Of a stretch of 37,843 nucleotides of DNA, positions 1,424 through 16,259 are shown in pieces. Made by a program: the position numbers and the translations under genes. Numbering within the stretch: position 1 is the first letter of the stretch; the number at the start of each line of letters is the position of its first letter. Source of the DNA: a virus; the IMG/VR virus record IMGVR_UViG_3300021963_004842, positions 1 to 37,843 of that record; one strand, 5' to 3'. The notes under the pieces are model-generated. The model did not search any database. It was not told the origin of the DNA and saw only the letters and a list, made by a program, of their open reading frames with translations.

Positions 1424-2123
1424 TTTACCGAAATCATCATTAATTGATGAGGGAGTATATTGCGGAAATTTATTTAATTTTTTAAATTCTGAAGAAATTG
1501 AATATACAAAAACTCTAATAGATAGAGTAAAAAAATTTTCAATAGAACAAAGAGATACTGCATTATATTGTAGATATAATTATCAATTGAGAGAAGATTT
1601 GAAAAATAGTACAAATAAAAATGGTGAATATGTACATTCTATTAAATTATCAGAAGTAGCAAAGCGAGATGAATTTGTAAAAGAAAACAAAAGAGAGACT
1701 ACACAAAAATGGTTTGAATTTTGGGGATTTGATATGGATTGTAAATACTTTATGGAAATATCAAAAAAAATATTAGATACGTTTTATCCTAATATTAACA
1801 TAGAATATACAAATTCCCCACAATTTACATTATATGAAGATGGTCATTTTATAGCAGAACATAATGATGGTGAAAATATTGATAGAGTATGTGCTTTGAT
1901 TGTATATCTATCATACGATGAAGATTACAATGACGGTGGCGGTGAATTAATTGCAACCGGAAATTCGGGTAAAATATATACCATCAAACCAACCTTTGGT
2001 ACATTTAGTTTGTTAGATTTTACAAAAAATAATGTAAAACATTCAGTATCAGAAGTTAAAAATGGATTTAAGAGATATGCATTTATATCGTTCTTTAATA
2101 AACAAAAAATAAAAGTTATATGA
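1395..2123 (+). CDS. 2-oxoglutarate/Fe(II)-dependent dioxygenase, prolyl-4-hydroxylase-like
   Basis: A 242-residue protein with the double-stranded beta-helix signature of 2OG-Fe(II) oxygenases. HND gives the metal ligands His156 and Asp158. VKHSV gives the distal His216. KRY places Arg227 to bind the 2-oxoglutarate carboxylate. Between them are ALIVYLSYD and GGGELIA, typical of the P4H/PiuC-like family. The substrate may be a protein side chain or a sugar; its place between two epimerases hints at glycan or nucleotide-sugar modification but does not prove it. The ATG start lies inside the previous gene (29-nt overlap) with an AAGG-like sequence just upstream. The end overlaps the next gene through ATGA, suggesting translational coupling. 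Confidence 0.85.
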   Translation: MNITLNPLDNLPKSSLIDEGVYCGNLFNFLNSEEIEYTKTLIDRVKKFSIEQRDTALYCRYNYQLREDLKNSTNKNGEYVHSIKLSEVAKRDEFVKENKRETTQKWFEFWGFDMDCKYFMEISKKILDTFYPNINIEYTNSPQFTLYEDGHFIAEHNDGENIDRVCALIVYLSYDEDYNDGGGELIATGNSGKIYTIKPTFGTFSLLDFTKNNVKHSVSEVKNGFKRYAFISFFNKQKIKVI

Positions 2124-3094
2124 TAAACAAAGATTCAAAAATACTAATAACAGGTGGTTCTGGGTTAGTAGGACAAAACTTAACAAACCGATTATATAGA
2201 GAAGGTTATTCAAACATCAGAGTTAATTTACACAAACGAGGAGTACGAACTCCCATCGAAGGAGTAGAATATGTTCATTTTGATTTGAAAACATATGATG
2301 GGTGCTTAAATGCAACTAAGGAAATTGATGTAGTATATCACGCAGCAGCAAGTACTTCAAACGCAGTAGATACCGTAGTTGACCCGTTAGCACACGTTAC
2401 TCCAAATGTAGCAATGAATAATTTTTTAATCGATGCCAGTTGGAGAAATAAAGTTAAACATTATATTTTTCTATCATCTAATACGGTATATCCACCAAAA
2501 GGCGATACTCCGGTAGTTGAAACCGATTTCTTATTTGATGAACCATATCCGGTTTATTTTCCTGTGGGTTGGATGAAAAGATATGCGGAAGTACAATGTG
2601 AGTTATATGCAAAATACTTACCAGAGAAAATGAAATGTACGGTTATTAGACCGGCTAATTTATTTGGTCCACATGATAAATACGATTTTGATAAGTGTCA
2701 CGTTACTCCTGCAACAATTAGAAAAGTAGCAGATAAAATGAATCCAATTCCTGTATGGGGAGATGGAACTGAATTAAGAGATTTACTTTATATTGAAGAT
2801 TTTTGCGAAGCATTGCAAATCGTAATGGAAAATGAAACTGAAAATTATCAAATATATAATATTGGATGTAATGAAGTTTATTCAGTATTAGATGTATTAG
2901 ATAAGATGAAGAAAATTGCAAACTACGATGCTCCAATAGAATTCATAAAGGGTAAACCATCGATGATTCCTACACGTAAAATCGATTCAAATAAGATTTA
3001 TGATAAGTTGGGTTGGAAAGCAACTACATCGCTAGAAGATGGATTAAAATTAGCTTACGAATGGTATTCAGAGCATAAGAGTGAATTTAATTAA
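2120..3094 (+). CDS. NAD-dependent epimerase/reductase (extended SDR), GDP-L-fucose-synthase-like, atypical active site
   Basis: A 324-residue extended SDR. TGGSGLVG (11-18) binds the dinucleotide, VVYHAAA (71-77) and FLSSNTVYPP (118-126) are standard strands, and RPANLFGPHDKYD (178-190) is close to GDP-fucose synthases. Lys153 is in GWMKRYAE, but the residue four positions earlier is Val149 rather than the catalytic Tyr, paralleling the gene at 488. The two are paralogues, sharing for instance RPAN(I/L)FG and the (V/L)RD(F/L) region. The start overlaps the preceding stop as ATGA. Three nt separate it from the next gene. It probably makes or reduces a deoxy-sugar nucleotide; substrate unknown. 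Confidence 0.85.
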   Translation: MINKDSKILITGGSGLVGQNLTNRLYREGYSNIRVNLHKRGVRTPIEGVEYVHFDLKTYDGCLNATKEIDVVYHAAASTSNAVDTVVDPLAHVTPNVAMNNFLIDASWRNKVKHYIFLSSNTVYPPKGDTPVVETDFLFDEPYPVYFPVGWMKRYAEVQCELYAKYLPEKMKCTVIRPANLFGPHDKYDFDKCHVTPATIRKVADKMNPIPVWGDGTELRDLLYIEDFCEALQIVMENETENYQIYNIGCNEVYSVLDVLDKMKKIANYDAPIEFIKGKPSMIPTRKIDSNKIYDKLGWKATTSLEDGLKLAYEWYSEHKSEFN

Positions 3095-3097
3095 ACT

Positions 3098-3964
3098 ATG
3101 AAAATAAAAGATGATAAAATAACTAAAGGCATACTATTTGCTGGTTGTTCATTTACTTGGGGACAGGGATTGTATTATTATTCTAATATGTCCACACTAA
3201 AAGAGCCACCACCCGATGCATATAATTGGGAATTAGTTACAGATGCACATAATAAATTTAGAAAAACATTATACTTTCCAAGGTTAGTTGCTAATCACTT
3301 TGATACCTTTGAGGTTTCAATGATACAAAATGGCGGAGCGGAAGTAACATCATTTGAATATATTAAATGTGCATTTGGATTATTGGGCCCGTATCATCAT
3401 TTGATAACGGAAACATACACATATGATGAAATAGAGTATATAGTATTACAAACATCGCAACCACAAAGAAATACATATTATTACGATTATATTAATTCAT
3501 ATGGTAGTGTACATAAATCTGAATTTAGAACATTTTCACCGGAAACGCATGATAAATTTTATAAATATTTAGATGAACAAAAAAAATGTTCATTTGATGA
3601 TTGGTGGAAAGAACATGTTAAAAATTACTTTGAAAAAATAAAACAAGAATTACAATTTTATGAAAGTAAAGGAATAAAAACCCTTATATTTAATTGGGAA
3701 GAAGATTATATGCCATTTTACAAACATGATAAATGGATGAACGATAGACTAATTACATTTGAATATAATGGAAATAAATATGATACCATACGAACTATGA
3801 TGAATGAGAATAGACATTTGCACATAAATTCAGATTATGAACATTTCGAAATCACACCAAAAGACCACCATCCTTCAAAAGAGTGTCATATAGTTATGGC
3901 GGATGCAATTATTAAAAAAATAGAAGAATCAAAAAATAAACGTTATGAATCAAAGCTTATATAA
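3098..3964 (+). CDS. SGNH/GDSL-type hydrolase-like protein
   Basis: A 288-residue protein with an N-terminal GCSFTWGQGL (16-25) that matches block I of SGNH hydrolases, the Ser being the nucleophile. Near the C-terminus KDHHPSKECH is a good block V candidate, with the catalytic His before Pro-Ser. In the middle, EYIVLQTSQPQR resembles the strand that carries the block III region. There is no signal peptide, so action is probably cytoplasmic, e.g. O-acyl transfer or hydrolysis on a sugar or glycan. The gene lies 3 nt after the epimerase and overlaps the transketolase-like gene by 20 nt. Aspartate spacing in block V (DxH rather than DxxH) is unusual, so catalysis is not certain. Confidence 0.65.
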   Translation: MKIKDDKITKGILFAGCSFTWGQGLYYYSNMSTLKEPPPDAYNWELVTDAHNKFRKTLYFPRLVANHFDTFEVSMIQNGGAEVTSFEYIKCAFGLLGPYHHLITETYTYDEIEYIVLQTSQPQRNTYYYDYINSYGSVHKSEFRTFSPETHDKFYKYLDEQKKCSFDDWWKEHVKNYFEKIKQELQFYESKGIKTLIFNWEEDYMPFYKHDKWMNDRLITFEYNGNKYDTIRTMMNENRHLHINSDYEHFEITPKDHHPSKECHIVMADAIIKKIEESKNKRYESKLI

Positions 3965-4481
3965 AGATGCACTTACCTCTGCAATGACGGAGTTGGGAAA
4001 GATGGATAATACTATCTTTATAGGACAACAATTACTTTGGCATGGAAATCCAATGAGTACAACTGTTGGGGAAGTTCCTAAAGAAAAAATGATTGAATTG
4101 CCTGTAATGGAAGAATCTCAAATGGGCATGAGTTTAGGTATGGCAATGGCGGGAAAATTTGTAATAACATTTTATCCTCGTTGGGATTTTCTTATATGTG
4201 CCACAAACCAAATAGTTAATCACGTTGATAAAATAGTTGGAATGAGTAAAGGTGAATGGAATCCAAATATGATTATTAGAATTGGAAAAGGTTCTGATAA
4301 ACCATTGGATCCTGGCCATCAACATAAGGGAAACTATATTGAGGAATTTAAATCACTATGTAAAAATATAGAATTTCACGATGTTAAATCTAATTTAGAT
4401 ATTGAACTTGCTTATAAATACGCTATACAACATGGTGGAATACATTGTATAGTAGAATACCCAGAATTATATTATGTCTAA
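3945..4481 (+). CDS. Transketolase/2-oxoacid dehydrogenase E1-beta-like pyrimidine-binding subunit
   Basis: A 178-residue protein corresponding to the pyrimidine (Pyr) domain of thiamine-diphosphate enzymes. The segment ELPVMEESQMGMSLGMAMAG (51-70) aligns well with the E1-beta consensus, placing the cofactor-activating glutamate at Glu56. FYPRWDFL and the NQIVNHVDK stretch match the following helix/strand pattern. The usual C-terminal transketolase_C domain (about 130 residues) is absent, so only half of a normal E1-beta (about 325 aa) is present. The partner TPP-binding half is probably the minus-strand gene at 8659-9291. It overlaps both neighbours (20 nt and 8 nt). Likely role: carbon-carbon bond chemistry on a sugar precursor. 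Exact reaction unknown. Confidence 0.75.
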   Translation: MNQSLYKDALTSAMTELGKMDNTIFIGQQLLWHGNPMSTTVGEVPKEKMIELPVMEESQMGMSLGMAMAGKFVITFYPRWDFLICATNQIVNHVDKIVGMSKGEWNPNMIIRIGKGSDKPLDPGHQHKGNYIEEFKSLCKNIEFHDVKSNLDIELAYKYAIQHGGIHCIVEYPELYYV

Positions 4482-5244
4482 TAATCCAAATATTTATCTG
4501 GTAACCTTTGGAGCAAAATCGTTCGGTAAAGATTTTTCTTTAAGTCGTTGTAGATTAGAAAATGAAGCAAGAGATACCGGTTGGTTTACTGATGTTTTTA
4601 ATTACACTTCCAATGATTTACTATCATATAACAGGTTCTTTGCCTCTGCCGGCGCAGGTTGGTGGTGGTGGAAATCCGTTGTTTGCCAAATTTCTTTGAA
4701 TAAAATTAAAAAGAACGATATAATCTTATATTTGGATGCCGGCTGTTCTATAAATATAAAAGGTGAAAAACGATTTTGGGAATATGTAGAACTATGTAAT
4801 AGCGGACCTGGATTTGTTGGGTTTGGTGGTATCGGTAACAATTTTCCTACCGAAAAAATTTATACAAAGCGAGATTTACTTATAGATTTAGGATGCGATT
4901 TACCACAATACACAAACACAACGCAATTGGGAGGTGGTTTATTTTTTCTTAAAAATAATGAATTTGGAAATGATTTAATTAATGAATTTGTAGAATTATC
5001 TAAAAATGAACATTATATAAATAACGATATATCTTCACATAAAGAATACGATGAATTTTTTGGACATAGAAACGACCAATCAGTTTTAAGTTTATTAATA
5101 AAATTAAGATTACCAAAATTAAATAATTATTTATTCTCTCTAAAAGAAACAACCCACAATCCGGCAGAGGATTTAGATTTACAATACCCGTTGAAAGCTA
5201 CAAGAATAAATGATTCACATATATGGAATAATATTTTAAATTAA
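4474..5244 (+). CDS. Putative glycosyltransferase of the YWxWKP/DAG-motif type
   Basis: A 256-residue protein with GWWWWKSVV (about 62-70) followed by NDIILYLDAGCS (about 80-91). This pair resembles a family of bacterial and phage surface-glycan glycosyltransferases in which a 'GYWxWKP' motif precedes a DAG motif that substitutes for DxD. Further support comes from GGGLFFLKN and from HRNDQSVLSLL near the C-terminus, a nucleotide-sugar-transferase-like motif. It has no signal or membrane segment. It starts 8 nt inside the previous gene and converges with the minus-strand SGNH gene, their ends overlapping by 9 nt. Donor and acceptor are unknown; it may glycosylate a virion protein, host glycan or DNA base. 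Confidence 0.65.
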   Translation: MSNNPNIYLVTFGAKSFGKDFSLSRCRLENEARDTGWFTDVFNYTSNDLLSYNRFFASAGAGWWWWKSVVCQISLNKIKKNDIILYLDAGCSINIKGEKRFWEYVELCNSGPGFVGFGGIGNNFPTEKIYTKRDLLIDLGCDLPQYTNTTQLGGGLFFLKNNEFGNDLINEFVELSKNEHYINNDISSHKEYDEFFGHRNDQSVLSLLIKLRLPKLNNYLFSLKETTHNPAEDLDLQYPLKATRINDSHIWNNILN

Positions 5245-6114
5245 ATTTACCCAAAGTCGTTTTTTTGATAAAATACTTTCATTTTTTACATCCCACTCAT
5301 CTATTTTTTCAAAATTTGGTGGATTATTTTTTATAGATTCTTTTATTTTCGTCATTATATAATAGTCTGTTGTTCTATACTCTGAAGATTGGTTTTCAAT
5401 AATTGTTTTAATGATTAATGCCAAATAATAATTACCATATCTACCATAATGATAATCTTCTATCCATTCATTTGTCTCTTTATTTATTCTCAATTTGTCC
5501 CATTCAGGTATTATTTTAGAATATGTTGAATGTGACGGGTCCCATATAAAATATTTTTCGTTCTGAAATACATCACTAATATTATTAAATCCAGACCATA
5601 TAATTGGTTTATATTTTTTATGAAGGAAAAGTAGATATGAAAAAAATTCTACAACATGTGTTTTTATATATCCACCATTTTCAACACTATAATCTGCATT
5701 TATAGAATATTGTTGAAAAAATTCTCTTATTATTTTAGAAGTGTTCGGACCTAAAACTTCTCCAGTATTATGTACAGTCAAATTATTCCCATTATCATCT
5801 AACCAATTATGCCTATGAAAAGAGGTCATTGCGATTACTAATCTATCGCCTTCTTGAAAATCTTTATCTATTTTTGAAAATTGATACATTATTTCATAAT
5901 TAGAACAACCACCTATACCATAATTATAAACCTCATACCCCCATTCCTTTAACCAATCATCAAAATATAGTGGTAATGTTATTCCATTTTTGATAAAACT
6001 TTTTATATACATAGAAACACCATTATCGGATAGTTTTCCATCATCAATAGCTTTTTTTTCTTTATTGTATAAATTATCTGCAAAAGAATCGCCTAATATA
6101 AAAATCCTACTCAT
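5236..6114 (-). CDS. SGNH-hydrolase-like protein
   Basis: A 292-residue protein starting with IFILGDSFADNLY (4-16), a clear block I (GDSF) of SGNH/GDSL-type folds. The block III strand is probably RLVIAMTSFHRHNW. The C-terminal region has EDYHYGRYGNYYLA, where His could be the block V catalytic residue. It has no signal peptide. It lies 1 nt downstream of the duplicated glycosyltransferase-like gene on the same strand and is the last gene of the minus arm. It is a different subfamily from the SGNH protein at 3098. Substrate unknown; O-acetyl esterase or acyltransferase activity on a glycan is a reasonable guess. Confidence 0.55.
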   Translation of the reverse strand: MSRIFILGDSFADNLYNKEKKAIDDGKLSDNGVSMYIKSFIKNGITLPLYFDDWLKEWGYEVYNYGIGGCSNYEIMYQFSKIDKDFQEGDRLVIAMTSFHRHNWLDDNGNNLTVHNTGEVLGPNTSKIIREFFQQYSINADYSVENGGYIKTHVVEFFSYLLFLHKKYKPIIWSGFNNISDVFQNEKYFIWDPSHSTYSKIIPEWDKLRINKETNEWIEDYHYGRYGNYYLALIIKTIIENQSSEYRTTDYYIMTKIKESIKNNPPNFEKIDEWDVKNESILSKKRLWVNLI

Positions 6115-6115
6115 A

Positions 6116-8674
6116 CTATATTAATTTTTGTATAGTTCCTCTCACTCCTGTTTTAAATTCATAATCATATAATCCGGTTAGTTTTTTTAAGAAATCCCTA
6201 TCACTTGTATCATATGTCAACCCATGTGCTATATTGTGATTTTTCTGAAATCTTTCTTTATTATTTTTATAAAAATCAATAAAAAATTCTTTGTTATCAT
6301 TTATCCGTTTAATTTCTTTAACAAACGCACGTAATCGTTCTTTATGGTCTAATATATTATCATAACTATGGTCTATAACATCATCAAACCAATCAAAATT
6401 ATAACGTTTTTTTATTTCATAAATATGGGTTGGAGATGCCAGTATTAATGGAAATTGAAATGTAACGAATGGTTTAAATGATTTTTCAGTAACATGTATT
6501 TCATTAGTATCAAATTCCGTTTCAGTTGTAATATTTACATACGAATTTTTATAACTTAAATACTCATATGTTCTTCCCCAATCTACATAATCTATATTAT
6601 CATTTCTAAACCAATTTTTATCTTCTTCATAGAAACTTTTCTTTTGGTCTATATTGATAAAATACATCATATCATCAATCATTTTTTCCATATCCTCATC
6701 GGATAAACACGATTGATATAATCCGATTGGATGGCTTGCATATTTTTGTTTAGCATCCCATCCATTTGCTAACGACCAATCCACATTATCCAAAAGACCA
6801 TTTTGTTTTAACAAAACTAATAGAGAATATCTATGTGGCCTAATACGTCTATTATGACATAAGAAGAACTTACCTTCTTTTTCTGTGGTATATTTTAATT
6901 CCGGCATTGCTTCCATCATAGCTAATCCAATATGTGTTCTAACTTTTGATGTAGCATATACATTCATTTGGCTATTTAATTTTGCTTTATAATCTTCTAA
7001 CTTAATATTATTATTTACTATCCAAATTTGATTTTGATTTAAATTATTAAATTTAGTCCAAAAATGAACAAACTTAAAAGTATTAAAACTTTCAAATTCT
7101 TGTTCATTTGCCAAAACAACATTAAAGTTTGGATTTTCTCTCCAACAATCTATAATCTCTTGTGGAAATGGTAAGACTCTATCTCTTATTTTATTACCTA
7201 TTTGATTTGGTGTAAGTGTTACAAAATAATAAAACTTTCTATTCGGAAATTTTGCAACATCATTAATTGGATATCGTTTAATTCTTTCTTCCGGAAATCC
7301 CAAAGACCTAACAAATGATTCTAAATTCATAAGAAATGAATCTGTATAAATTTCTTTACAATTCATATCATATGGCTCTTGCAATGTTTCGTTCCAATTA
7401 TCATAAACTAAGTGTAAATCTACATCATCTATTTCTGGCTTTACTTCACTTAATTTTTTAAAAAACTCATAATCATAATTATTACCCCATCCCTTTAATA
7501 TGTCGTGATTTTTCTGAAATCTTTCTTTATTATTTTTATAAAAATCAATAAAAAATTCTTTGTTATCATTTATACGTTTAACTTCTTCAACGAATGTAAT
7601 TAATCTATCTCTATCATTTTTTATATTATCATAACTATGATTTATAATATCATCAAAGAAATCTAATTCAGGATAAGCTTTTCTAAAATATTCTAAATGA
7701 TGATATGAGGATAAAATCATTGGATATTGAAAATAAAAAAATGGTTTAAATGATTTTTCAGTAATATGAATATCTTCTCCTATAAAATTAGTTTCAGTTG
7801 TAATATTTAAATATGAATTTTCATAACTATTGGGTTCATTTGGCAATCTTTGAACTTCTCTATCATTCAATCCTTCGTATTGAGTTTCATAATTACTTTT
7901 TTTAATATCAATTGAAGTAAAATATTCAATTTCATCTAATAAATTTAATATATCTTCAGAGTTAAAAATAGAAGCAAACTGTGATTTAGCTTCTTTATCA
8001 AAAGACCATCCGTTTACCAACGACCAATTTGTATTGTCTAAAATATTATATTTTTTTAATAAACATAATAATCCATACCGATGAATTCTTGGACTTCTAT
8101 TATGACACAAAAAAAACTGATTCGGAGTTTTTAATGTTCTATATTTTACGGGAGGATGCATGCCCTGAACTGAAGTAGACATTGAACGGCATGTATGAAC
8201 ATTTATACTTGCATTTAATTCTTGCTTATGTTCCAATAATTTTTCACCATTATGAATAAACCAAACTTTTTTAGGATTTATTTTATGTAGTTTTACTATC
8301 TTATCAAGTCTTTCCAAAGACTGTTTTGTTTCAAACTCACATTCATTCATTATAATTAAATGTAAATTATTATTGGTTTTAATCATCCGAATTACCTCTT
8401 TATTCACAGGTAACATATCATTGGCAAAAAAACGATTATTCCAACCATTTCTATTCCATATATGATAATAAAACATTACATTCGGATTATTTGGAACATC
8501 TGATAGTTTCCAATTTTTAATCTTAGTTAGCGCGAATACAGCCATTGGTTGCGTAGATAGCACCCACGTATTCTCATTATCATCTTGATGAACATAATCA
8601 CTTAATCTATTAGGACGAGGTAAATCATTTACTTCATCCCAATCATCATAAACAAAATTTAAAAAGTTATCCAT
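6116..8674 (-). CDS. Tandem-duplicated exostosin/GT10-like putative glycosyltransferase
   Basis: An 852-residue protein made of two homologous halves of about 423 residues. Each half has an acidic N-terminal VYD(D/N)W motif, then FFLCHNR followed by HRY-LL-LLK, and N-W-SL-NGW. Each then has TTET-F-E-IH(I/V)TEKSFKPF (around residues 305 and 728) followed by a near-identical end with RINDNKEFFIDFYKNNKERF. The TEKSFKPF...FQ(F/Y)P(L/M)I pattern resembles the donor-binding segment of exostosin-like and fucosyltransferase (GT10) families, where TEK(I/S) precedes a PV motif. Reaction unknown. The start overlaps the end of the TPP subunit gene by 16 nt. The two halves may be two catalytic sites or one catalytic and one binding half. 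Confidence 0.6.
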   Translation of the reverse strand: MDNFLNFVYDDWDEVNDLPRPNRLSDYVHQDDNENTWVLSTQPMAVFALTKIKNWKLSDVPNNPNVMFYYHIWNRNGWNNRFFANDMLPVNKEVIRMIKTNNNLHLIIMNECEFETKQSLERLDKIVKLHKINPKKVWFIHNGEKLLEHKQELNASINVHTCRSMSTSVQGMHPPVKYRTLKTPNQFFLCHNRSPRIHRYGLLCLLKKYNILDNTNWSLVNGWSFDKEAKSQFASIFNSEDILNLLDEIEYFTSIDIKKSNYETQYEGLNDREVQRLPNEPNSYENSYLNITTETNFIGEDIHITEKSFKPFFYFQYPMILSSYHHLEYFRKAYPELDFFDDIINHSYDNIKNDRDRLITFVEEVKRINDNKEFFIDFYKNNKERFQKNHDILKGWGNNYDYEFFKKLSEVKPEIDDVDLHLVYDNWNETLQEPYDMNCKEIYTDSFLMNLESFVRSLGFPEERIKRYPINDVAKFPNRKFYYFVTLTPNQIGNKIRDRVLPFPQEIIDCWRENPNFNVVLANEQEFESFNTFKFVHFWTKFNNLNQNQIWIVNNNIKLEDYKAKLNSQMNVYATSKVRTHIGLAMMEAMPELKYTTEKEGKFFLCHNRRIRPHRYSLLVLLKQNGLLDNVDWSLANGWDAKQKYASHPIGLYQSCLSDEDMEKMIDDMMYFINIDQKKSFYEEDKNWFRNDNIDYVDWGRTYEYLSYKNSYVNITTETEFDTNEIHVTEKSFKPFVTFQFPLILASPTHIYEIKKRYNFDWFDDVIDHSYDNILDHKERLRAFVKEIKRINDNKEFFIDFYKNNKERFQKNHNIAHGLTYDTSDRDFLKKLTGLYDYEFKTGVRGTIQKLI
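6236..6304. repeat. 69-bp exact direct repeat, copy 1
   Basis: This 69-base stretch is identical to 7505-7573. The spacing of 1269 bases equals 423 codons, so the repeat is in frame within the duplicated glycosyltransferase-like gene and encodes the conserved end of each half (RINDNKEFFIDFYKNNKERF region). The rest of the halves has diverged much more, pointing to local gene conversion or strong constraint. Confidence 0.95.
7505..7573. repeat. 69-bp exact direct repeat, copy 2
   Basis: Second copy of the in-frame repeat described at 6236-6304, encoding the C-terminal end of the first half of the 852-residue protein. Homologous recombination between the copies would delete exactly one half without a frameshift. 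Confidence 0.95.
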
Positions 8675-9291
8675 TTACCAGTTCCGTAATGCGGCCATTT
8701 ATTTTTATAATTATACCAAACCACATTTGCCGGAATATCTCTTTTAACACCACCCCAAGTTTCAATTGTTGGAGTGTTAGTTGATACCCCATTATCTTCA
8801 ACGATAAATATAATAGGCAAGTTTAAATTGGTTGCGTATTTATGCATTTCATAAAATTGTCCTGTTTCAAATGCCATATCACCAACAAAACACCAAACCT
8901 TTTCAGTTCCACCATTACTCTTTATACCCATAGCAGCTCCAACAGCTATTGGAATTATTGATGAAACTATTGCAGATGCATAGAATTTATCTTTTTCACT
9001 TACTATGGTTATTGAACGACCTTCTAATATTTCCTGCTTTAACCAAACCGGAGATACTCCTTTAATTAAAGCATGGTAGTGAGAACGCCAAGTTGAAAAT
9101 ACCCAATCAGAATCATCCATCCTTTTTGATATTTCTAACAATTGTTCTTCATTTCCATTACATAGGTGTACCGGTCCTTGTATTCCTCCTTTTTCCCAAT
9201 GTTCTACTATATTATCTTCAAATGCGATTAACTCATCCGAAGTATATTTAGCTTCTCTAACTATTGGGTACTGTTCTAAATTTTGTATCAT
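8659..9291 (-). CDS. E1-alpha-like thiamine-diphosphate-binding subunit (short)
   Basis: A 210-residue homologue of the TPP-binding alpha subunit of 2-oxoacid dehydrogenases/transketolases. TWRSHYHALIKGV (67-79) matches the E1-alpha YRDHGH-L-GV region. IPIAVGAAMGIK precedes VWCFVGDMAFETGQFYEMHK (132-151), whose GD with N167 in VEDNGVST forms the GDx(n)N magnesium-diphosphate motif. Position three of the motif is Met instead of Gly. Normal E1-alpha is 320-360 residues; this one stops soon after the motif, with a short aromatic tail. It likely pairs with the Pyr-domain protein at 3945-4481. It overlaps the RmlC-like gene by 1 nt and the next gene by 16 nt, in an operon-like array. Confidence 0.78.
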   Translation of the reverse strand: MIQNLEQYPIVREAKYTSDELIAFEDNIVEHWEKGGIQGPVHLCNGNEEQLLEISKRMDDSDWVFSTWRSHYHALIKGVSPVWLKQEILEGRSITIVSEKDKFYASAIVSSIIPIAVGAAMGIKSNGGTEKVWCFVGDMAFETGQFYEMHKYATNLNLPIIFIVEDNGVSTNTPTIETWGGVKRDIPANVVWYNYKNKWPHYGTGKWITF

Positions 9292-9827
9292 TATCTATCT
9301 CTTTTTTGTAAAATTGGGTTATTCGTTGGCCATTCCATTTGGTATTCTTCATCATTCCATTTAACTACACCTTGCTCATCTGCATCCACATAACCATCTT
9401 TGTAGAATAGGTTATAGTGAAACATACAATCGGTTAATGCATAGTGTCCATTAGCAAATCCCGGTGGAACTAATACTTGATTTCTATCTTTTTCGGTTAT
9501 CATAAATGATTCCCAATCGCCAAATGTAGGAGATTCTTTCCTCATATCCAACACAATTAAATAAATATCACCAACTGCTGCTTGAACTAATTTCCAAGTC
9601 TTATTATCATAATGTAATCCTCTCAACACACCTTTGTATGATTTTGAGAATCTACCATGCACCTCATTTCCTTCACCAATCTTAGCCATAACAGGATGTT
9701 CTCCTGAATGAAAAGTTGTAAATATTTCACCCCTATACTCTCTGTAAATTGATGGAGTATATGTTGGCACTTCTAATCCGAATTTTTTTGATGGAGTTAT
9801 TTTAAACTCATCCCATTTATTGCTCAT
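9291..9827 (-). CDS. dTDP-4-dehydrorhamnose 3,5-epimerase-like cupin (RmlC family)
   Basis: A 178-residue cupin with the RmlC signature. KGVLRGLHYD (66-74) gives catalytic His72. Further matches are VGDIYLIVLDMRKESPTFGDW, VPPGFANGHYALTD (120-133), Tyr138 and the C-terminal WNDEEYQMEWP motif with Asp159. The usual GFAHGF is GFANGH: the structural or catalytic His is replaced by Asn, with a His two residues on, as in a divergent subfamily seen in phage and plasmid sugar clusters (from memory). It probably epimerises C3 and/or C5 of a 4-keto NDP-sugar. It lies 1 nt from the upstream epimerase gene and overlaps the TPP subunit by one base. Partial activity (3-epimerase only) is possible. Confidence 0.85.
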   Translation of the reverse strand: MSNKWDEFKITPSKKFGLEVPTYTPSIYREYRGEIFTTFHSGEHPVMAKIGEGNEVHGRFSKSYKGVLRGLHYDNKTWKLVQAAVGDIYLIVLDMRKESPTFGDWESFMITEKDRNQVLVPPGFANGHYALTDCMFHYNLFYKDGYVDADEQGVVKWNDEEYQMEWPTNNPILQKRDR

Positions 9828-9828
9828 A

Positions 9829-10806
9829 TTATGTTTGATTTGCGTAACCTAAAGGAAATCCGTTTCTAAATTCTGCTCCCATTTTTGGAACTATCATCTG
9901 ATATGCCATAATTAATTGCTTAATACCCATATCCAAATCCCACTCCGGTTTCCAACCTGTTGCTTCTATCTTTTCGTTTGATACTATATAATCCCTCTTA
10001 TCCGGGTCCTCATAATAATCATTATACGAAATAGCAAAATCTTTAACGTGTGATTGTATTTTTTCTAATAGTTCTTGCTTAGATAAATTAGCATCACTCA
10101 ATCCTACATTGAATACTTCGCCTTTATATTTATCATAATTTTCTAACATAAATAAAAACGCAGATGCTACATCTTCTATATGAATGAAATTTCTTTTAAA
10201 TAATTTCTCAAATACCACAATATATTTATCAGTAATTGCTTTATAAGTAAAATCATTTACTAATAAATCCGTTCTCATTCGAGGTGATACTCCGAATACA
10301 GTTGCCAATCTAAAAGTAATTGCTGATGTATTTGCTTTAAGAAAGTTTTCAGCTTCACATTTAGTTGAACCATAAACCGATATTGGATTTAATGGAGATT
10401 CTTCAGTACATTCGGTTTGTCCAACCCCAATACCATATCCACTATTTGTATTTGGGTATAATATTTTTTTATCTTTAGCAAATTTTACAATATTAAAAAT
10501 TTGATTAAAGTTGATTTCTTTTGCCAGTTGAGGGTCTGCTGCGCAAGCTGGAAATCCTACGATTGCTGCTAATGGAATAATTATATCAGCCTCTTTACAA
10601 AGTTTTTCTAATAATTCCTCATTACGAACATCTCCGTAAATAAATTTAAAATTTGGATTGGAAGTGTATTGGAGTAAAGATGTTTGATTGAATAATAATT
10701 TATCCAATACAATAACTCCATATCCAGCTTTGAGTAGTTTATCCACAATTACAGACCCCAAATAGCCTGCACCACCCGTAATTAATACTTTTTCGAAAGT
10801 AACCAT
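9829..10806 (-). CDS. NAD-dependent epimerase/dehydratase, canonical extended SDR
   Basis: A 325-residue NDP-sugar epimerase/dehydratase. GGAGYLG (11-17) is the Rossmann motif, with DVRN at 59-62 after a beta strand. IIPLAAIVGFPACAADP is the conserved loop, NSGYG supplies the Ser, and YGSTK (145-149) is a canonical YxxxK. I chose the ATG at 10806 because the upstream in-frame ATG at 10845 would add 13 residues of aromatic, AT-driven sequence before the core; the Rossmann strand begins right after 10806. It is the first gene of the minus arm, directly downstream of an AT-rich divergent promoter region. UDP-glucose 4-epimerase-like activity is one possibility; substrate not established. Confidence 0.85.
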   Translation of the reverse strand: MVTFEKVLITGGAGYLGSVIVDKLLKAGYGVIVLDKLLFNQTSLLQYTSNPNFKFIYGDVRNEELLEKLCKEADIIIPLAAIVGFPACAADPQLAKEINFNQIFNIVKFAKDKKILYPNTNSGYGIGVGQTECTEESPLNPISVYGSTKCEAENFLKANTSAITFRLATVFGVSPRMRTDLLVNDFTYKAITDKYIVVFEKLFKRNFIHIEDVASAFLFMLENYDKYKGEVFNVGLSDANLSKQELLEKIQSHVKDFAISYNDYYEDPDKRDYIVSNEKIEATGWKPEWDLDMGIKQLIMAYQMIVPKMGAEFRNGFPLGYANQT

Positions 10807-11039: not shown

Positions 11040-14000
11040 GTGGATAAACCAATAATTAAAAAGACGATAGTAATATATTCAGGCCGTTTTCAACCTTTTC
11101 ACAAAGGGCATTACGCTGCATATGAAAAATTGGTGTCAAAGTTTGGCGCCAGTAATGTTTATATTGGTACATCGGATAAAAGTGATGGTGGTAAATCTCC
11201 GTTTAATTTTAAAGAAAAAGTTGTAATAATGGGTAAAATGTTTGGAATCGCTCCAAGCAAAATAGTACAAGTATCAAACCCATATGCACCAAAAGAAATA
11301 CTTTCAAAATTCGATGGTAAAACAACAGCATATATTGCAGCTGTTGGTGATAAAGATGCTAGTAGATTAGCAGGAAAATACTTTAAACCATATAAAGGTA
11401 AGACTGGATATGGTTATGAAGAGATTGGTTATACTTATATTATACCATCTGAATCAAATCCAATTAGTGGAACTGATGTAAGAAAGTGGTTAAGTTCGGA
11501 TGATGCTGAGAAATTATTCTTAAAAGCATATCCAAAATTCGATAAAGAAATTTTTAAAATGATAACTAACAAACTGATTAAAGAGGAACTTGCAAAAGGA
11601 TATCCATCTAAAGAAGATGTTAAGAAAATACAAAAGAAAAACGATAATATTCGTTCAGTAGCAACTACCGATGATTCTTATGTATATGACCCAATAGCTG
11701 AACAAATTGCAAAATTAGTATTTGAAGCTGATAGTTTTATAGATGATTACTTCTTAGAAGAAGAACCAAATCCTATTATGGATAAGGAAATCGATTATAC
11801 TGCAGCTGATGGTAAAAAGAAAAAGATTACTGTTAGGGGAGCATTACGATTACCAAAAGACCACGAAGCACACATCCAAGCAAATAAATTAGTTGGACCG
11901 GATGATGCACCTGCTAACGAACCAAAAGGTAAAGCAGCAACTCAAGCAGCTAAACCTGCTGAACCTGGACAACCTGTTAAGAAAGACCAAACCGCACAAG
12001 GTAAAGCTGATAAAGCAAAAGGTGGAGATGCAGAATCACCAGAAGCACCAAACCCTCAAAAATTAAGTGGAGCAGAATTAAAATCATCAGCCGAAGATAA
12101 AGTTGCGAAGGAAAGAAAAGCTGAAGAATTAAAAACTGCATTAGATAATGAAGTTAAGAGTTTAAATAAAAATGAGCAAGAGTTCATTAAAAACGGAGAA
12201 CATAAGCAAGGTTCAAAGTTTATGAATTCTTTAAAAGAAGGTATAAAGAAAGTTGCAGATACTAAAGTTGTTAAAGCAATTGGGCATGTATTAAAACACA
12301 AAGCAGAAATGATTAGTGGTACATACGATGGTGTTAAAGCATTAGCAAGTGGACAGAAAGTTGGTTCAACTAAAAATAAAGAAACTGGCGAATGGGAATA
12401 CTCCGATGAGAAAAGAAAAGAGCAAGTAAGTCATATGAAGCATTTTGCTAAAGATGTGGCTCTTTTAGTTGGTAGTGTTGCATTAGGTGGCGGATTAGCA
12501 TATGGTGCAAAAGCAATAGCAGGAGGAGCTAGTTTAGGTGGTGCAGCCGCCGCCGTTGGAAAGGGCGCAGTGGGTGCATTTACTCACGGAGTAGGTGGAT
12601 TTGCTGCACATTTAGGTAAAGATACGATTAAGCACGTTGCATTAGAATCATTAGGATTAGGCGGTACACAAGCCGCAGTTGGTGGAGCAGGATTAGCGGG
12701 GGTAACTATGGGATTATTAGAAATTCGTTCCCTAATTACTGAAGAAGAAATGAATAACGAAAGATTTATGCAAAACTTTGTTAGTAAAATGGCGGAGAAG
12801 ATGGAAACTTTCGAAATGAATGATAAACAATTATTAGAATCCGTTAAATCATATAAGCAAGGTAAAAACTTTGGAGATTTAGTTAAAGAAGATATTAATA
12901 TAGATGTTGATAAGGGTGATACCGTCTTAATGGGAAAATTTAAGAACAAAAAAGTTGTTGTTAAAGATTTTGGAAAAGATGACCACGGAATGCCAACAAT
13001 TAATGGTAAAAAGGCAACCACATTTAGATTAGGTGATAAAGGACAAAATGTTTTTAAACAAGATAAGGAAGTAGATGAAGTTGGAGTTGGTGATTGGCAT
13101 TATAAAGCAATTATGTTAATGTGGGATAAAGCCAGTTCATATGGTAGAAAGAAAATTGGAGCAGCAGTTTGTGCAAATCCAAATGCTAATAAGAGAGAAG
13201 TAGAAAGAGAATTACGAAATTTTGGATATAGAGATATAACTGATGCTTCTGTTCAATTGGGATTACTAAAAGAAGAAGTTCCAGCTCCAGAGCAAAAAAA
13301 AAGTAAAGGAAGAATTATAGGCGAATTTATAAAATTTGCAAAAGATAGATTACGATTAATCAGCATACCATTTAATATTAAATTGGTAAAAGATGGCGAA
13401 TTTGCTACAACATTTAAATCATTTGGTGGGTTTGACCCAATCAATAATGATATATTTATATATGTTACCAATCGAAGTACTCCTGATATCCTAAGAACAT
13501 TAGCACATGAATTAGTTCATCTTAAACAAAGACAAGATGGATATATTGGCGGACCTGAAGATGGAGCAACTGGTTCTGATGTTGAAAACGAAGCAAACGC
13601 AGCTGCCGGAATTCTTTTAAGAGATTTTGGTAAACTTAATGGAAATATTTACGAATCAATAAATGAGGGACTAAAATGGGAAACATCTACATTAGAAATG
13701 TGTATGAATAATATGGTGCCGCTTACACTTCCAATAGTAAAACAATTAGTAGAAATTAGGAGAGCAAATGCATTTCATATTACGGATATAGATAACCTTT
13801 CGAAGTTAGTAAGTTTAGAGGGAAAGAGTAAATCTATTTCAGCTTTTAATAAAATGGATTCAGTAGCAGGACCCGCATCTGGTCAGGGAATGTGGACAAA
13901 TGGTGGAATTTTGGTTTTACTTTCTGGAATAGTTCTTGCAGAGAGTATTCACGATTTATGGTCTAAACCTGATAAATCTGGTATAAGATGGATTACCCCT

Positions 14001-16259
14001 GGCAATGCTATGTATGATGAATTTAGTAAAAAATATCAAATCATAGATTATGCTCCCAAATTAAAACCATTAAAAGAAAAATGGGAAAAATCTAAATCCG
14101 ATTTAACAAACCAGGAAAAACAATACTTTATCAAAACCTATATAGATACGGCATATAAGTTGATGATTGATAACAAACAACACTTTCAAAATAAATATTT
14201 AAATTCTAATACTTTGTATTATGATTCAGATTGGAATGAAGTAATCCTTAGTAAAATAAAAGTGGAAAAGATTGCAGTAATCGAAGATAGTGTTGCAATA
14301 GGAGGTGGAAGAACTAACTTACAAGATTACCCATGGGATATACAAAAGCAACACAGAGAATTGGAATTGGCTAAAGGTAGAGCAGAAGCCAATAAATGGT
14401 TAGAACGTCAGGATAATCCGAATGATAAATCAAAGGAAAATATCGATGCTATAAAAAGTAAATACAAAAATGTTGAAATAATTACCGCTAAAGATGTACC
14501 ATCTTTTATTAAAAAAAATGGAGGATACATTAGAGAATCTATAAACGAATTAACTCAAAAAGAACAAAGAATTAAAAACGGAAAACCAGGTAATACATAT
14601 TATGTATATTATAAGGGACAGTTTGCTGTTGATTATGATATGTTTGGAATGAGTGGAGTAGATAGATTTTATAGAGAAAAATTCAAAGTAAGAAAAGTAA
14701 AAGGTTCATCATTTAATCCTGATTTTATAATTATTACTAAAATAGACTATGATAGAAGCCCAAATCATTACGCAAAATTAAAACCATATGTAGATAAGTT
14801 TTGGGATAAATTACAAAGTGAATCGGTAAACGAAGAAACTGCACCTGAAATTATAAAAGATTTAGATAAGGTAAGACACGATTTGATTAAAAAGGTAGAT
14901 GTTTTAATTGCTAAAAAGAAAAAACTTTACTCTAATATTGATATTGAATCACCAATGAGTGCAGAAGAAAAGCAATTAGATAAAGATATACAATCTATAT
15001 TTTCACAAATCCAACAAATAATTCTTAAAAAAAGAACTTTAAAAGAATCTCTTTTAACCGAAGGCGGTGCATACGGACATATGAATCATCCATTTGATAT
15101 TTCAATGAATCTTACATTTGGTGATTTAAAAAAAATTGTTAATAATGCATTAGATGGTAAATTGGGAGTAGTTAGAGAAAAAACCGATGGACAGGCATTA
15201 GCAATCAGTTGGAAGAATGGTAGATTAATTGCCGCTCGTAACAAATCACATTTAGCAAATGGTGGAGCAAACGCTTTAGATATGAGTGCGTTGGCATCTA
15301 AATTTGGAGGAAGAGGCGCATTAAGTGATGCATACAATTTTGCAATGAGAGATTTATCAGCAGCAATTAGTGGATTAGGAGAGAAAGAAAGACAGAGTAT
15401 ATTCAAAGATGGTTCAGCATTTTGTAACTTAGAAGTAATCTATCCACAAAATGCAAATGTAATTCCTTATGGACAATCTTTATTAGTATTTCATAATGTA
15501 GTTGAATTTGATGAAAAGGGTAACGCTATTGGTAGTGTAAAGGGTGCAGAAAGTAAATTAGCATCTATGATTAAACAAACTAATGCACACGTACAATCTC
15601 AATATACATTACAAGGCCCTCCAATTACAAAACTTCCAACCGATGAGAAGTTAAGTTCTCAAAAAGGTAAATTCAACGGAATGTTATCCAAATTACAATC
15701 TGAATTTAATTTATCAGATAAGGCTGGTATAGCTGAATATCACTATTCTTGGTGGATGAAATTAATTAATAATTCTAAAAAGAATTTAACAAAATTAGAA
15801 AAAGAAGGGTTAGCAAGAAGATGGGCATTTGATGATAAAGCATTTGGTATTAAATCAATAACTGATGAAGATGCTAAGAAATGGGCAGATGGAGTAGATA
15901 AAGATGCTAAGGATAAAATAATGAAAGGTAATATTCGTAAATTCGAAGATATCTTTTTAGGCGTTGGAGCTGAAGTATTATCATTTATGAGTTCGGTATT
16001 AACTGCACAGCCAGATAAAGCATTACAATCGATTAAAGCATCATTAGAATCATCTATATCAGATATTCGGAATGGTGGTAGTGAAGCTCAAATAAAAAGA
16101 TTAGAAAAAGAATTACAAAGATTAAATGCTATTGGTGGATTTGAAAAATTAGTTCCAAATGAAGGATTAGTATTTTTCTATAAAGGAAACACATATAAAT
16201 TAACAGGAACATTTGCTCCCTTAAATCAAATTTTAGGAATTTTTAAGTTTGGGAGATAA
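11040..16259 (+). CDS. Giant multidomain polyprotein: nucleotidyltransferase, HELVH metallopeptidase-like and KxDG ligase-like domains
   Basis: A 1739-residue protein with a GTG start. Residues 10-200 form a cytidylyltransferase/NMN-adenylyltransferase-like domain: SGRFQPFHKGH with HxGH at 21-24, and ISGTDVRKW near 142-150. Residues about 250-400 are charged, Ala/Lys-rich linker. Residues about 470-560 are Gly/Ala-rich and hydrophobic. AHELVH (822-827) plus DVENEA downstream is a zinc-metallopeptidase signature. Residues 1342-1739 hold EKTDGQ (Lys1381-Gly1384), motif I of ATP-dependent ligases/nucleotidyltransferases. ESINE (872-876, 1166-1170), ESVNE (1261-1265) and ESLLTE (1336-1341) sit between modules and look like prohead-protease sites. 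It is followed by terminase-region genes. Pieces may be packaged in the capsid; this is inference. Confidence 0.75.
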   Translation: MDKPIIKKTIVIYSGRFQPFHKGHYAAYEKLVSKFGASNVYIGTSDKSDGGKSPFNFKEKVVIMGKMFGIAPSKIVQVSNPYAPKEILSKFDGKTTAYIAAVGDKDASRLAGKYFKPYKGKTGYGYEEIGYTYIIPSESNPISGTDVRKWLSSDDAEKLFLKAYPKFDKEIFKMITNKLIKEELAKGYPSKEDVKKIQKKNDNIRSVATTDDSYVYDPIAEQIAKLVFEADSFIDDYFLEEEPNPIMDKEIDYTAADGKKKKITVRGALRLPKDHEAHIQANKLVGPDDAPANEPKGKAATQAAKPAEPGQPVKKDQTAQGKADKAKGGDAESPEAPNPQKLSGAELKSSAEDKVAKERKAEELKTALDNEVKSLNKNEQEFIKNGEHKQGSKFMNSLKEGIKKVADTKVVKAIGHVLKHKAEMISGTYDGVKALASGQKVGSTKNKETGEWEYSDEKRKEQVSHMKHFAKDVALLVGSVALGGGLAYGAKAIAGGASLGGAAAAVGKGAVGAFTHGVGGFAAHLGKDTIKHVALESLGLGGTQAAVGGAGLAGVTMGLLEIRSLITEEEMNNERFMQNFVSKMAEKMETFEMNDKQLLESVKSYKQGKNFGDLVKEDINIDVDKGDTVLMGKFKNKKVVVKDFGKDDHGMPTINGKKATTFRLGDKGQNVFKQDKEVDEVGVGDWHYKAIMLMWDKASSYGRKKIGAAVCANPNANKREVERELRNFGYRDITDASVQLGLLKEEVPAPEQKKSKGRIIGEFIKFAKDRLRLISIPFNIKLVKDGEFATTFKSFGGFDPINNDIFIYVTNRSTPDILRTLAHELVHLKQRQDGYIGGPEDGATGSDVENEANAAAGILLRDFGKLNGNIYESINEGLKWETSTLEMCMNNMVPLTLPIVKQLVEIRRANAFHITDIDNLSKLVSLEGKSKSISAFNKMDSVAGPASGQGMWTNGGILVLLSGIVLAESIHDLWSKPDKSGIRWITPGNAMYDEFSKKYQIIDYAPKLKPLKEKWEKSKSDLTNQEKQYFIKTYIDTAYKLMIDNKQHFQNKYLNSNTLYYDSDWNEVILSKIKVEKIAVIEDSVAIGGGRTNLQDYPWDIQKQHRELELAKGRAEANKWLERQDNPNDKSKENIDAIKSKYKNVEIITAKDVPSFIKKNGGYIRESINELTQKEQRIKNGKPGNTYYVYYKGQFAVDYDMFGMSGVDRFYREKFKVRKVKGSSFNPDFIIITKIDYDRSPNHYAKLKPYVDKFWDKLQSESVNEETAPEIIKDLDKVRHDLIKKVDVLIAKKKKLYSNIDIESPMSAEEKQLDKDIQSIFSQIQQIILKKRTLKESLLTEGGAYGHMNHPFDISMNLTFGDLKKIVNNALDGKLGVVREKTDGQALAISWKNGRLIAARNKSHLANGGANALDMSALASKFGGRGALSDAYNFAMRDLSAAISGLGEKERQSIFKDGSAFCNLEVIYPQNANVIPYGQSLLVFHNVVEFDEKGNAIGSVKGAESKLASMIKQTNAHVQSQYTLQGPPITKLPTDEKLSSQKGKFNGMLSKLQSEFNLSDKAGIAEYHYSWWMKLINNSKKNLTKLEKEGLARRWAFDDKAFGIKSITDEDAKKWADGVDKDAKDKIMKGNIRKFEDIFLGVGAEVLSFMSSVLTAQPDKALQSIKASLESSISDIRNGGSEAQIKRLEKELQRLNAIGGFEKLVPNEGLVFFYKGNTYKLTGTFAPLNQILGIFKFGR

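Follow-up and report, generated by a model that had tools for sequence, protein, structure and literature searches.

A reduced two-subunit thiamine-diphosphate enzyme among the nucleotide-sugar genes of an aquatic phage, predicted to act on a 4-keto sugar

The window analyzed here is the whole stretch of 37,843 bases given above, an IMG/VR record from an aquatic bacteriophage, whose large terminase has its nearest relatives in Flavobacterium phages immuto and a Microcystis phage (~53% identity). Two of its genes correspond to the two halves of a thiamine-diphosphate (ThDP) enzyme. The Pyr (E1-beta-like) half is encoded on the plus strand at 3945-4481; its 178 amino acids match the Pfam domain Transket_pyr at 34.9 bits, above the cut-off, and the catalytic Glu56 lies within ELPVMEESQMG. 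The TPP-binding (E1-alpha-like) half, of 210 amino acids, is encoded on the minus strand at 8659-9291 and matches E1_dh at 67.6 bits; it carries a GD motif at residues 137-138 and an asparagine at residue 167. Both sets of residues had been named in the original prediction and were confirmed in the translations. The view that each protein is reduced to its cofactor-binding core is borne out by size, since the comparable proteins Pau11 and Pau12 have 325 and 345 amino acids (PMC4425429). No homology between the TPP and Pyr halves was found by profile comparison. Both match the same PHROG of fused proteins, phrog_34187, in which the TPP half covers positions 2-200 of the profile and the Pyr half positions 236-401, and such agreement between two separate genes of the window is far beyond chance. 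Chance or decayed open reading frames are ruled out by the domain scores, together with the invariant residues and the co-divergence of the two halves described below.

The TPP gene is translationally coupled, through a TAATG stop/start, to an RmlC-like 3,5-epimerase gene (9291-9827, minus strand; dTDP_sugar_isom, 112 bits). The eight best PDB matches of this epimerase all belong to the Campylobacter GDP-heptose modification set, and several are named GDP-4-keto-heptose 3- or 3,5-epimerase (7an4, 8dcl, 8dco). Beside it lies a short-chain dehydrogenase/reductase (SDR) gene of family SDR6 (9829-10806, minus strand), whose product matches 6vo6_A over 308 residues (E = 4.1e-109, 368 bits; next match 8rdg, 98.8 bits), an entry that we take to be Cj1427. 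Cj1427 is the C4-dehydrogenase that makes GDP-D-glycero-4-keto-lyxo-heptose from GDP-D-glycero-D-manno-heptose, and its structural analysis has been cited (PMC10680097). The window SDR is predicted from this similarity to be a GDP-D-glycero-D-manno-heptose C4-dehydrogenase and the source of the 4-keto acceptor, so that a Cj1427-type enzyme of the Campylobacter pathway appears to be present in the window. On its other side, in the window and in close relatives, the TPP gene is followed by a gene for an 852-amino-acid protein (family 15; 6116-8674, minus strand), which has no Pfam or PHROG match; the order TPP-15 recurs in loci L083, L090, L097 and L099. This protein consists of two repeats of ~425 amino acids with ITEKSFKPF motifs, and shorter relatives (family 0) are present in many loci. 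It is probably a tandem glycosyltransferase of an undescribed type.

Three genes of the plus strand encode further enzymes: two SDRs that resemble Fcl and C4-reductases, SDR5 at 488-1423 (Epimerase, 133 bits; PDB matches to GDP-fucose synthases) and SDR3 at 2120-3094 (Epimerase, 149 bits; PDB matches to GDP-4-keto-6-deoxymannose epimerase/reductase), whose likeness to Fcl in the PDB matches is general only, and between them a 2OG-Fe(II) oxygenase at 1395-2123 (2OG-FeII_Oxy_3, 41.7 bits) that lies within the module of some relatives. The next gene, at 3098-3964 on the plus strand, has no Pfam match and usually adjoins the Pyr gene in close relatives. Both halves had been said to overlap sugar genes. 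This holds for the TPP gene, which is coupled to the epimerase gene and shares 16 nt with the gene at 6116-8674, whereas the neighbors that the Pyr gene overlaps (3098-3964 and 4474-5244) are without Pfam match. An open reading frame of 1739 amino acids on the plus strand (11040-16259) begins with a CTP_transf_like region (22.1 bits) containing a GRFQPFHKGH motif, carries near its C-terminus a KTDG-type nucleotidyltransferase-like motif recognized by eye (EKTDGQALAIS), and precedes the terminase-portal block in many relatives. The GDP-heptose supply genes GmhA, HddA and HddC, which belong to the Campylobacter pathway, were not annotated among the window genes examined; the GDP-heptose is presumably supplied by the host.

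The catalytic residues of the pair are conserved. Glu56 aligns with the E1-beta glutamate of human pyruvate dehydrogenase (PDH) E1, and the GD...N motif with the equivalent positions of E1-alpha. Across the TPP family alignment H42, H71, G137 and H201 are invariant and D138, R69 and N167 are conserved at 90% or more, and across the Pyr family alignment E56, R79 and H127 are invariant and H93 and R112 are conserved at 90% or more. H201, within YPHxGxGKW, may replace the loop histidine of E1-alpha, a suggestion that concerns a region, beyond residue 200, in which the model is poor. The single-chain AlphaFold2 models are otherwise confident (pLDDT 92.1 for the TPP half and 95.4 for the Pyr half). 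Foldseek ranks PDH E1 above DXS and split transketolase for both halves, with best matches to PDH E1-alpha (3exe_A, TMq 0.68) and PDH E1-beta (3exe_B, TMq 0.86).

By sequence, the two halves have the E1-alpha and E1-beta features of the two-subunit alpha-keto acid dehydrogenase E1 class (alpha-KADH2). The Pyr protein, however, ends at 178 amino acids without the C-terminal domain of E1-beta (Transketolase_C), and we therefore file the pair as a reduced variant rather than as a standard member of that class. Neither half matches Transketolase_N (PF00456) or Transketolase_C (PF02780) in Pfam at E 0.01. Among 23 phage records, searches for PF02780, for the E2 catalytic domain (PF00198) and for the lipoyl domain (PF00364) were all negative, and the control genomes were positive. 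These absences argue against an oxidative E1 complex, which is unlikely unless an E2 of the host is used, and make a non-oxidative carboligase likely. A single chain of the acetolactate-synthase (ALS) type, as in YerE (TPP_enzyme_N/M/C, flavin), was also considered and set aside, as two separate E1-type chains are encoded here and Pfam gave no more than a weak TPP_enzyme_C match (26 bits).

Such pairs had been thought unusual in a phage, yet relatives of the TPP half are encoded in 164 IMG/VR stretches, 80 of which were kept, and relatives of the Pyr half in 76. The pair is present in 66 non-redundant phage loci and in 46 loci of bacterial and archaeal assemblies. The latter, here called the genome collection, are cellular assemblies, mostly SAR11 single-cell genomes, Chloroflexota, Planctomycetota, Omnitrophota, candidate phyla and archaeal metagenome-assembled genomes (MAGs). 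Four loci with the phage version of the cassette (L161, L162, L163 and L210) were binned as Saccharibacteria, Pelagibacterales, Flavobacteriales and Gammaproteobacteria MAGs; because their neighbors are phage genes of the same cassette, they were treated as misbinned phage contigs and excluded from the 46. A plasmid search returned only ordinary E1-alpha-like enzymes. The relatives are mostly metagenomic contigs, with gene families defined by clustering and HMM best hit. Both halves were found in every locus not clipped by a contig end, including L156, where they lie ~11 kb apart, and their pairwise distances co-vary (Mantel r = 0.755, P = 0.001). The two genes thus co-occur in relatives, a point on which the original prediction had staked itself, and diverge together.

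The pair is usually encoded on one strand. After removal of near-copies, 63 of 64 phage pairs are arranged in this way, with the TPP gene first in 60, and the window is the sole exception; in the genome collection all 46 pairs lie on one strand, 43 of them within 120 nt, with a median gap of about -1 nt. The commonest order of marker genes in phages is SDR6-RmlC-TPP-SDR5-SDR3-PYR (16 loci). The window instead has SDR5-SDR3-PYR on the plus strand and SDR6-RmlC-TPP on the minus strand, from which it follows that one block was moved and inverted. An assembly artifact is unlikely, as a sister IMG/VR contig (3300027294_000190; L002/L082), with halves 97% and 100% identical to those of the window, has the same layout. 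A functional meaning for the opposite strands, to which the original prediction had drawn attention, is not supported: the block SDR6-RmlC-TPP-(15) was rearranged locally, in a layout private to the window phage and this sister contig, and this implies no separate mechanism. The terminase-portal block is preceded by a large gene, and in 14 of 76 phage loci the Pyr gene is at most four genes upstream of that gene, a position that may, speculatively, hint at late expression and virion decoration.

A fused form was found in the cyanophages S-SM2 and P-TIM68 (L158 and L159), in which TPP and Pyr, in this order, are encoded by a single gene annotated as a "transketolase central region-containing protein" and located inside LPS-type clusters. 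The fused protein is homologous to both window halves (~38% and 35% identical), but its neighborhood, an LPS-type cluster with heptose-phosphate genes, differs from that of the window pair, and it represents a divergent subfamily, perhaps with another substrate. In both cyanophages a zinc alcohol dehydrogenase gene precedes the fused gene, and a carbohydrate kinase, an HldE-like gene and a phosphoheptose isomerase are nearby. Whether the LPS clusters of cyanophages function or are stuffer DNA was left undecided by a study in 2010 (PMC3037559).

In other phages and in bacteria, the pair occurs in an alternative context, with an SDR resembling GDP-mannose/heptose 4,6-dehydratases and often, adjacent to the TPP gene, a DegT protein nearest to ColD in which histidine replaces the PLP lysine. 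This context is the counterpart of the Campylobacter HS:5 route, which uses a 4,6-dehydratase, a PLP-dependent C3-dehydratase, a C5-epimerase and a C4-reductase (PMC10440746). Among the 66 phage loci, 34 have only the Cj1427-like SDR, 23 only the 4,6-dehydratase, two both and seven neither (P = 1.8e-9 for mutual exclusion, Fisher's exact test), counts to be read with the caution that SDR subfamilies are confusable at low identity and that some "neither" loci (L140, L147, L052) have the SDR elsewhere in the record. To allow for the relatedness of loci, switches between the two enzymes were counted on a tree of the TPP half, with L140 and L147 corrected to SDR; there were at least 12 on this tree, which came from a quick search and has some long branches. 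Among 10 independent pairs on the same tree there is no case of both enzymes changing in the same direction (median P = 0.016, sign test). The mutual exclusion and the switches indicate that the pair stays constant when the enzyme supplying the 4-keto sugar is exchanged. In some distant loci of the genome collection neither 4-keto enzyme is within reach.

At the level of sequence, two cofactor halves with their catalytic residues are constantly paired, in a GDP-4-keto sugar context served by two exchangeable routes, and this context strongly suggests a 4-keto sugar as the substrate of the pair, most likely a derivative of GDP-4-keto-heptose (or GDP-4-keto-mannose). Since both routes would give a GDP-4-keto sugar, the attachment of a two-carbon unit at C4 is the best reading, and we favor, with moderate confidence, a miniature non-oxidative ThDP carboligase of the E1 class that branches GDP-4-keto-heptose at C4. 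In this scheme, the TPP (alpha-like) and Pyr (beta-like) subunits would assemble into an alpha/beta heteromer whose active site lies between them. The Cj1427-like dehydrogenase would make GDP-4-keto-heptose, and the RmlC-like epimerase would set its configuration. ThDP would take up two carbons, most probably as an acetaldehyde equivalent derived from pyruvate by decarboxylation, and the resulting carbanion would be added onto the C4 ketone. One of the two Fcl-like SDRs would then reduce the branch carbonyl, and phage glycosyltransferases would transfer the branched product to the host surface or to a component of the virion. All steps beyond the making of the GDP-4-keto sugar are drawn by analogy with AviB1/AviB2, Pau11/Pau12, KbDH-alpha/beta and YerE. 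The proposal that the phage makes a branched-chain NDP-sugar thus stands as far as a split E1-alpha/E1-beta ThDP enzyme in a fitting context, with the reaction itself a matter of inference. As a counterpoint, SDRs resembling C4-reductases share clusters with the pair, and by analogy with Campylobacter these could simply reduce the C4 ketone, in competition with branching. Also speaking against the scheme are the small size of both halves, well below that of the characterised sugar-branching E1 pairs, the different surroundings of the fused cyanophage form, and the distant genome-collection loci that lack both 4-keto enzymes nearby.

The donor could differ from pyruvate: with a ketose phosphate, or with a 2-keto acid of greater length, the pair might transfer to the 4-keto sugar a hydroxyacetyl or otherwise functionalised branch of two or more carbons. 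Enzymes of the ErwE type prefer longer hydroxylated 2-keto acids, and split transketolases have been proposed for the hydroxyacetyl branches of miharamycin (PMC12247030). The invariant Arg79 of the Pyr half and its near-invariant His93 and Arg112 could, we infer, read a polar donor. The two-subunit E1 class has been reported, however, to be specialised for two-carbon branches from pyruvate (PMC12247030), and we regard another donor as unlikely.

The pair might instead be a miniature transketolase that provides sedoheptulose 7-phosphate, or another ketose phosphate, for GDP-heptose synthesis through GmhA, HddA and HddC. Relatives of HddA, HddC and GmhA are present in 26, 16 and 13 of the 46 genome-collection loci, and the fused genes of cyanophages have a phosphoheptose isomerase and HldE-like genes nearby. 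In phages, however, these supply genes are nearly absent (HddA and GmhA in one of 66 loci each; HddA-like genes in two of 23 records), and the pair is kept with the downstream 4-keto enzymes, which places it downstream, at the GDP-4-keto sugar, and argues against the making of sedoheptulose 7-phosphate. The halves also match E1 rather than transketolase in sequence and fold, and host bacteria already possess a transketolase. This explanation appears rather improbable.

The best named sequence matches of the two halves, PDH E1-alpha and E1-beta, would agree with an ordinary keto acid dehydrogenase E1, intact or as remnants, that has no role in sugar metabolism. This is nonetheless very improbable: the E2, lipoyl and Transketolase_C domains are missing from the 23 phage records, decay is ruled out because the catalytic residues are invariant and the halves have long been inherited together, and the nucleotide-sugar context is constant. 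That the TPP and Pyr genes are unrelated domains brought near each other by chance, as their opposite strands and separation of ~4.2 kb in the window could suggest, can be dismissed given the fused homologs, the near-universal pairing and adjacency elsewhere and the correlated divergence, and is already refuted by co-occurrence.

Like AviB1/AviB2, Pau11/Pau12, EvdU5/EvdS3 and KbDH-alpha/beta, the window pair is a split E1-alpha/E1-beta ThDP enzyme in a cluster of nucleotide- or keto-sugar genes, and it shares with pairs of the AviB1/AviB2 type the lack of an E2 and the predicted two-carbon transfer to a 4-keto sugar. KbDH-alpha/beta and YerE act on 4-keto sugars or their analogues (PMC12247030). 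Pau11 and Pau12 are longer and belong to actinobacterial antibiotic pathways, whereas the window pair lies in a GDP-heptose module and its Pyr half lacks the C-terminal domain. The likening to antibiotic pathways made in the original prediction fits the predicted branching, but an antibiotic-type gene context is not supported, as the neighbors in the window are nearest to genes of Campylobacter capsule heptose biosynthesis. YerE and ErwE, of yersiniose and erwiniose, share the predicted chemistry, in which a (3,6-dideoxy)-4-keto nucleotide sugar for a surface polysaccharide receives a carbon branch, but they are single chains of the acetolactate-synthase type that use CDP-sugars, unlike the E1-type pair with its GDP-type sugar genes. 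The capsular heptose pathways of Campylobacter jejuni provide a counterpart to the SDR of the window and likely ones to its epimerase and reductase-like SDRs, and the 4,6-dehydratase and C3-dehydratase route of HS:5 is paralleled in relatives of the window locus. The paper on the pathway names no transketolase or thiamine enzyme (PMC10680097), whereas the window has the ThDP pair.

More broadly, and only tentatively, the pair may represent an undescribed minimal family of two-subunit ThDP enzymes (~210 + 178 amino acids), spread across phages and the bacteria and archaea listed above, that makes C4-branched, nine-carbon GDP-heptoses for surface polysaccharides or virion glycans, with the acceptor module repeatedly exchanged and the branching enzyme kept. 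Our search of the literature on phage GDP-heptose, branched capsule sugars and heptose auxiliary genes found nothing on the TPP/Pyr pair. If the proposal is correct, it would assign a role to proteins that are widespread yet entered in PHROGs as "unknown function", and many aquatic phages would carry genes for rare branched sugars of the heptose type. Unusually small two-subunit ThDP enzymes acting on ketones would be of interest as a way to tertiary alcohols, and one could then test what phages gain from such sugars, be it virion decoration or an altered host surface. The acceptor is predicted by the way in which 4-keto modules are exchanged while the pair stays constant.

Two further kinds of gene were observed in relatives. 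In 12 of the 46 genome-collection loci a B12-binding radical SAM protein lies beside the TPP/Pyr pair (L196:4194-5714, L189, L206 and others), which might carry out a C-methylation or another radical reaction on the same sugar. Some phages encode a second, RfbH-like dehydrase (SFYPAHHMTMGEGG; L069:1-1167, L072:22-1098, L080:5305-6642), which is accompanied by another 4,6-dehydratase and apparently belongs to a separate dideoxyhexose cluster of the same genome.
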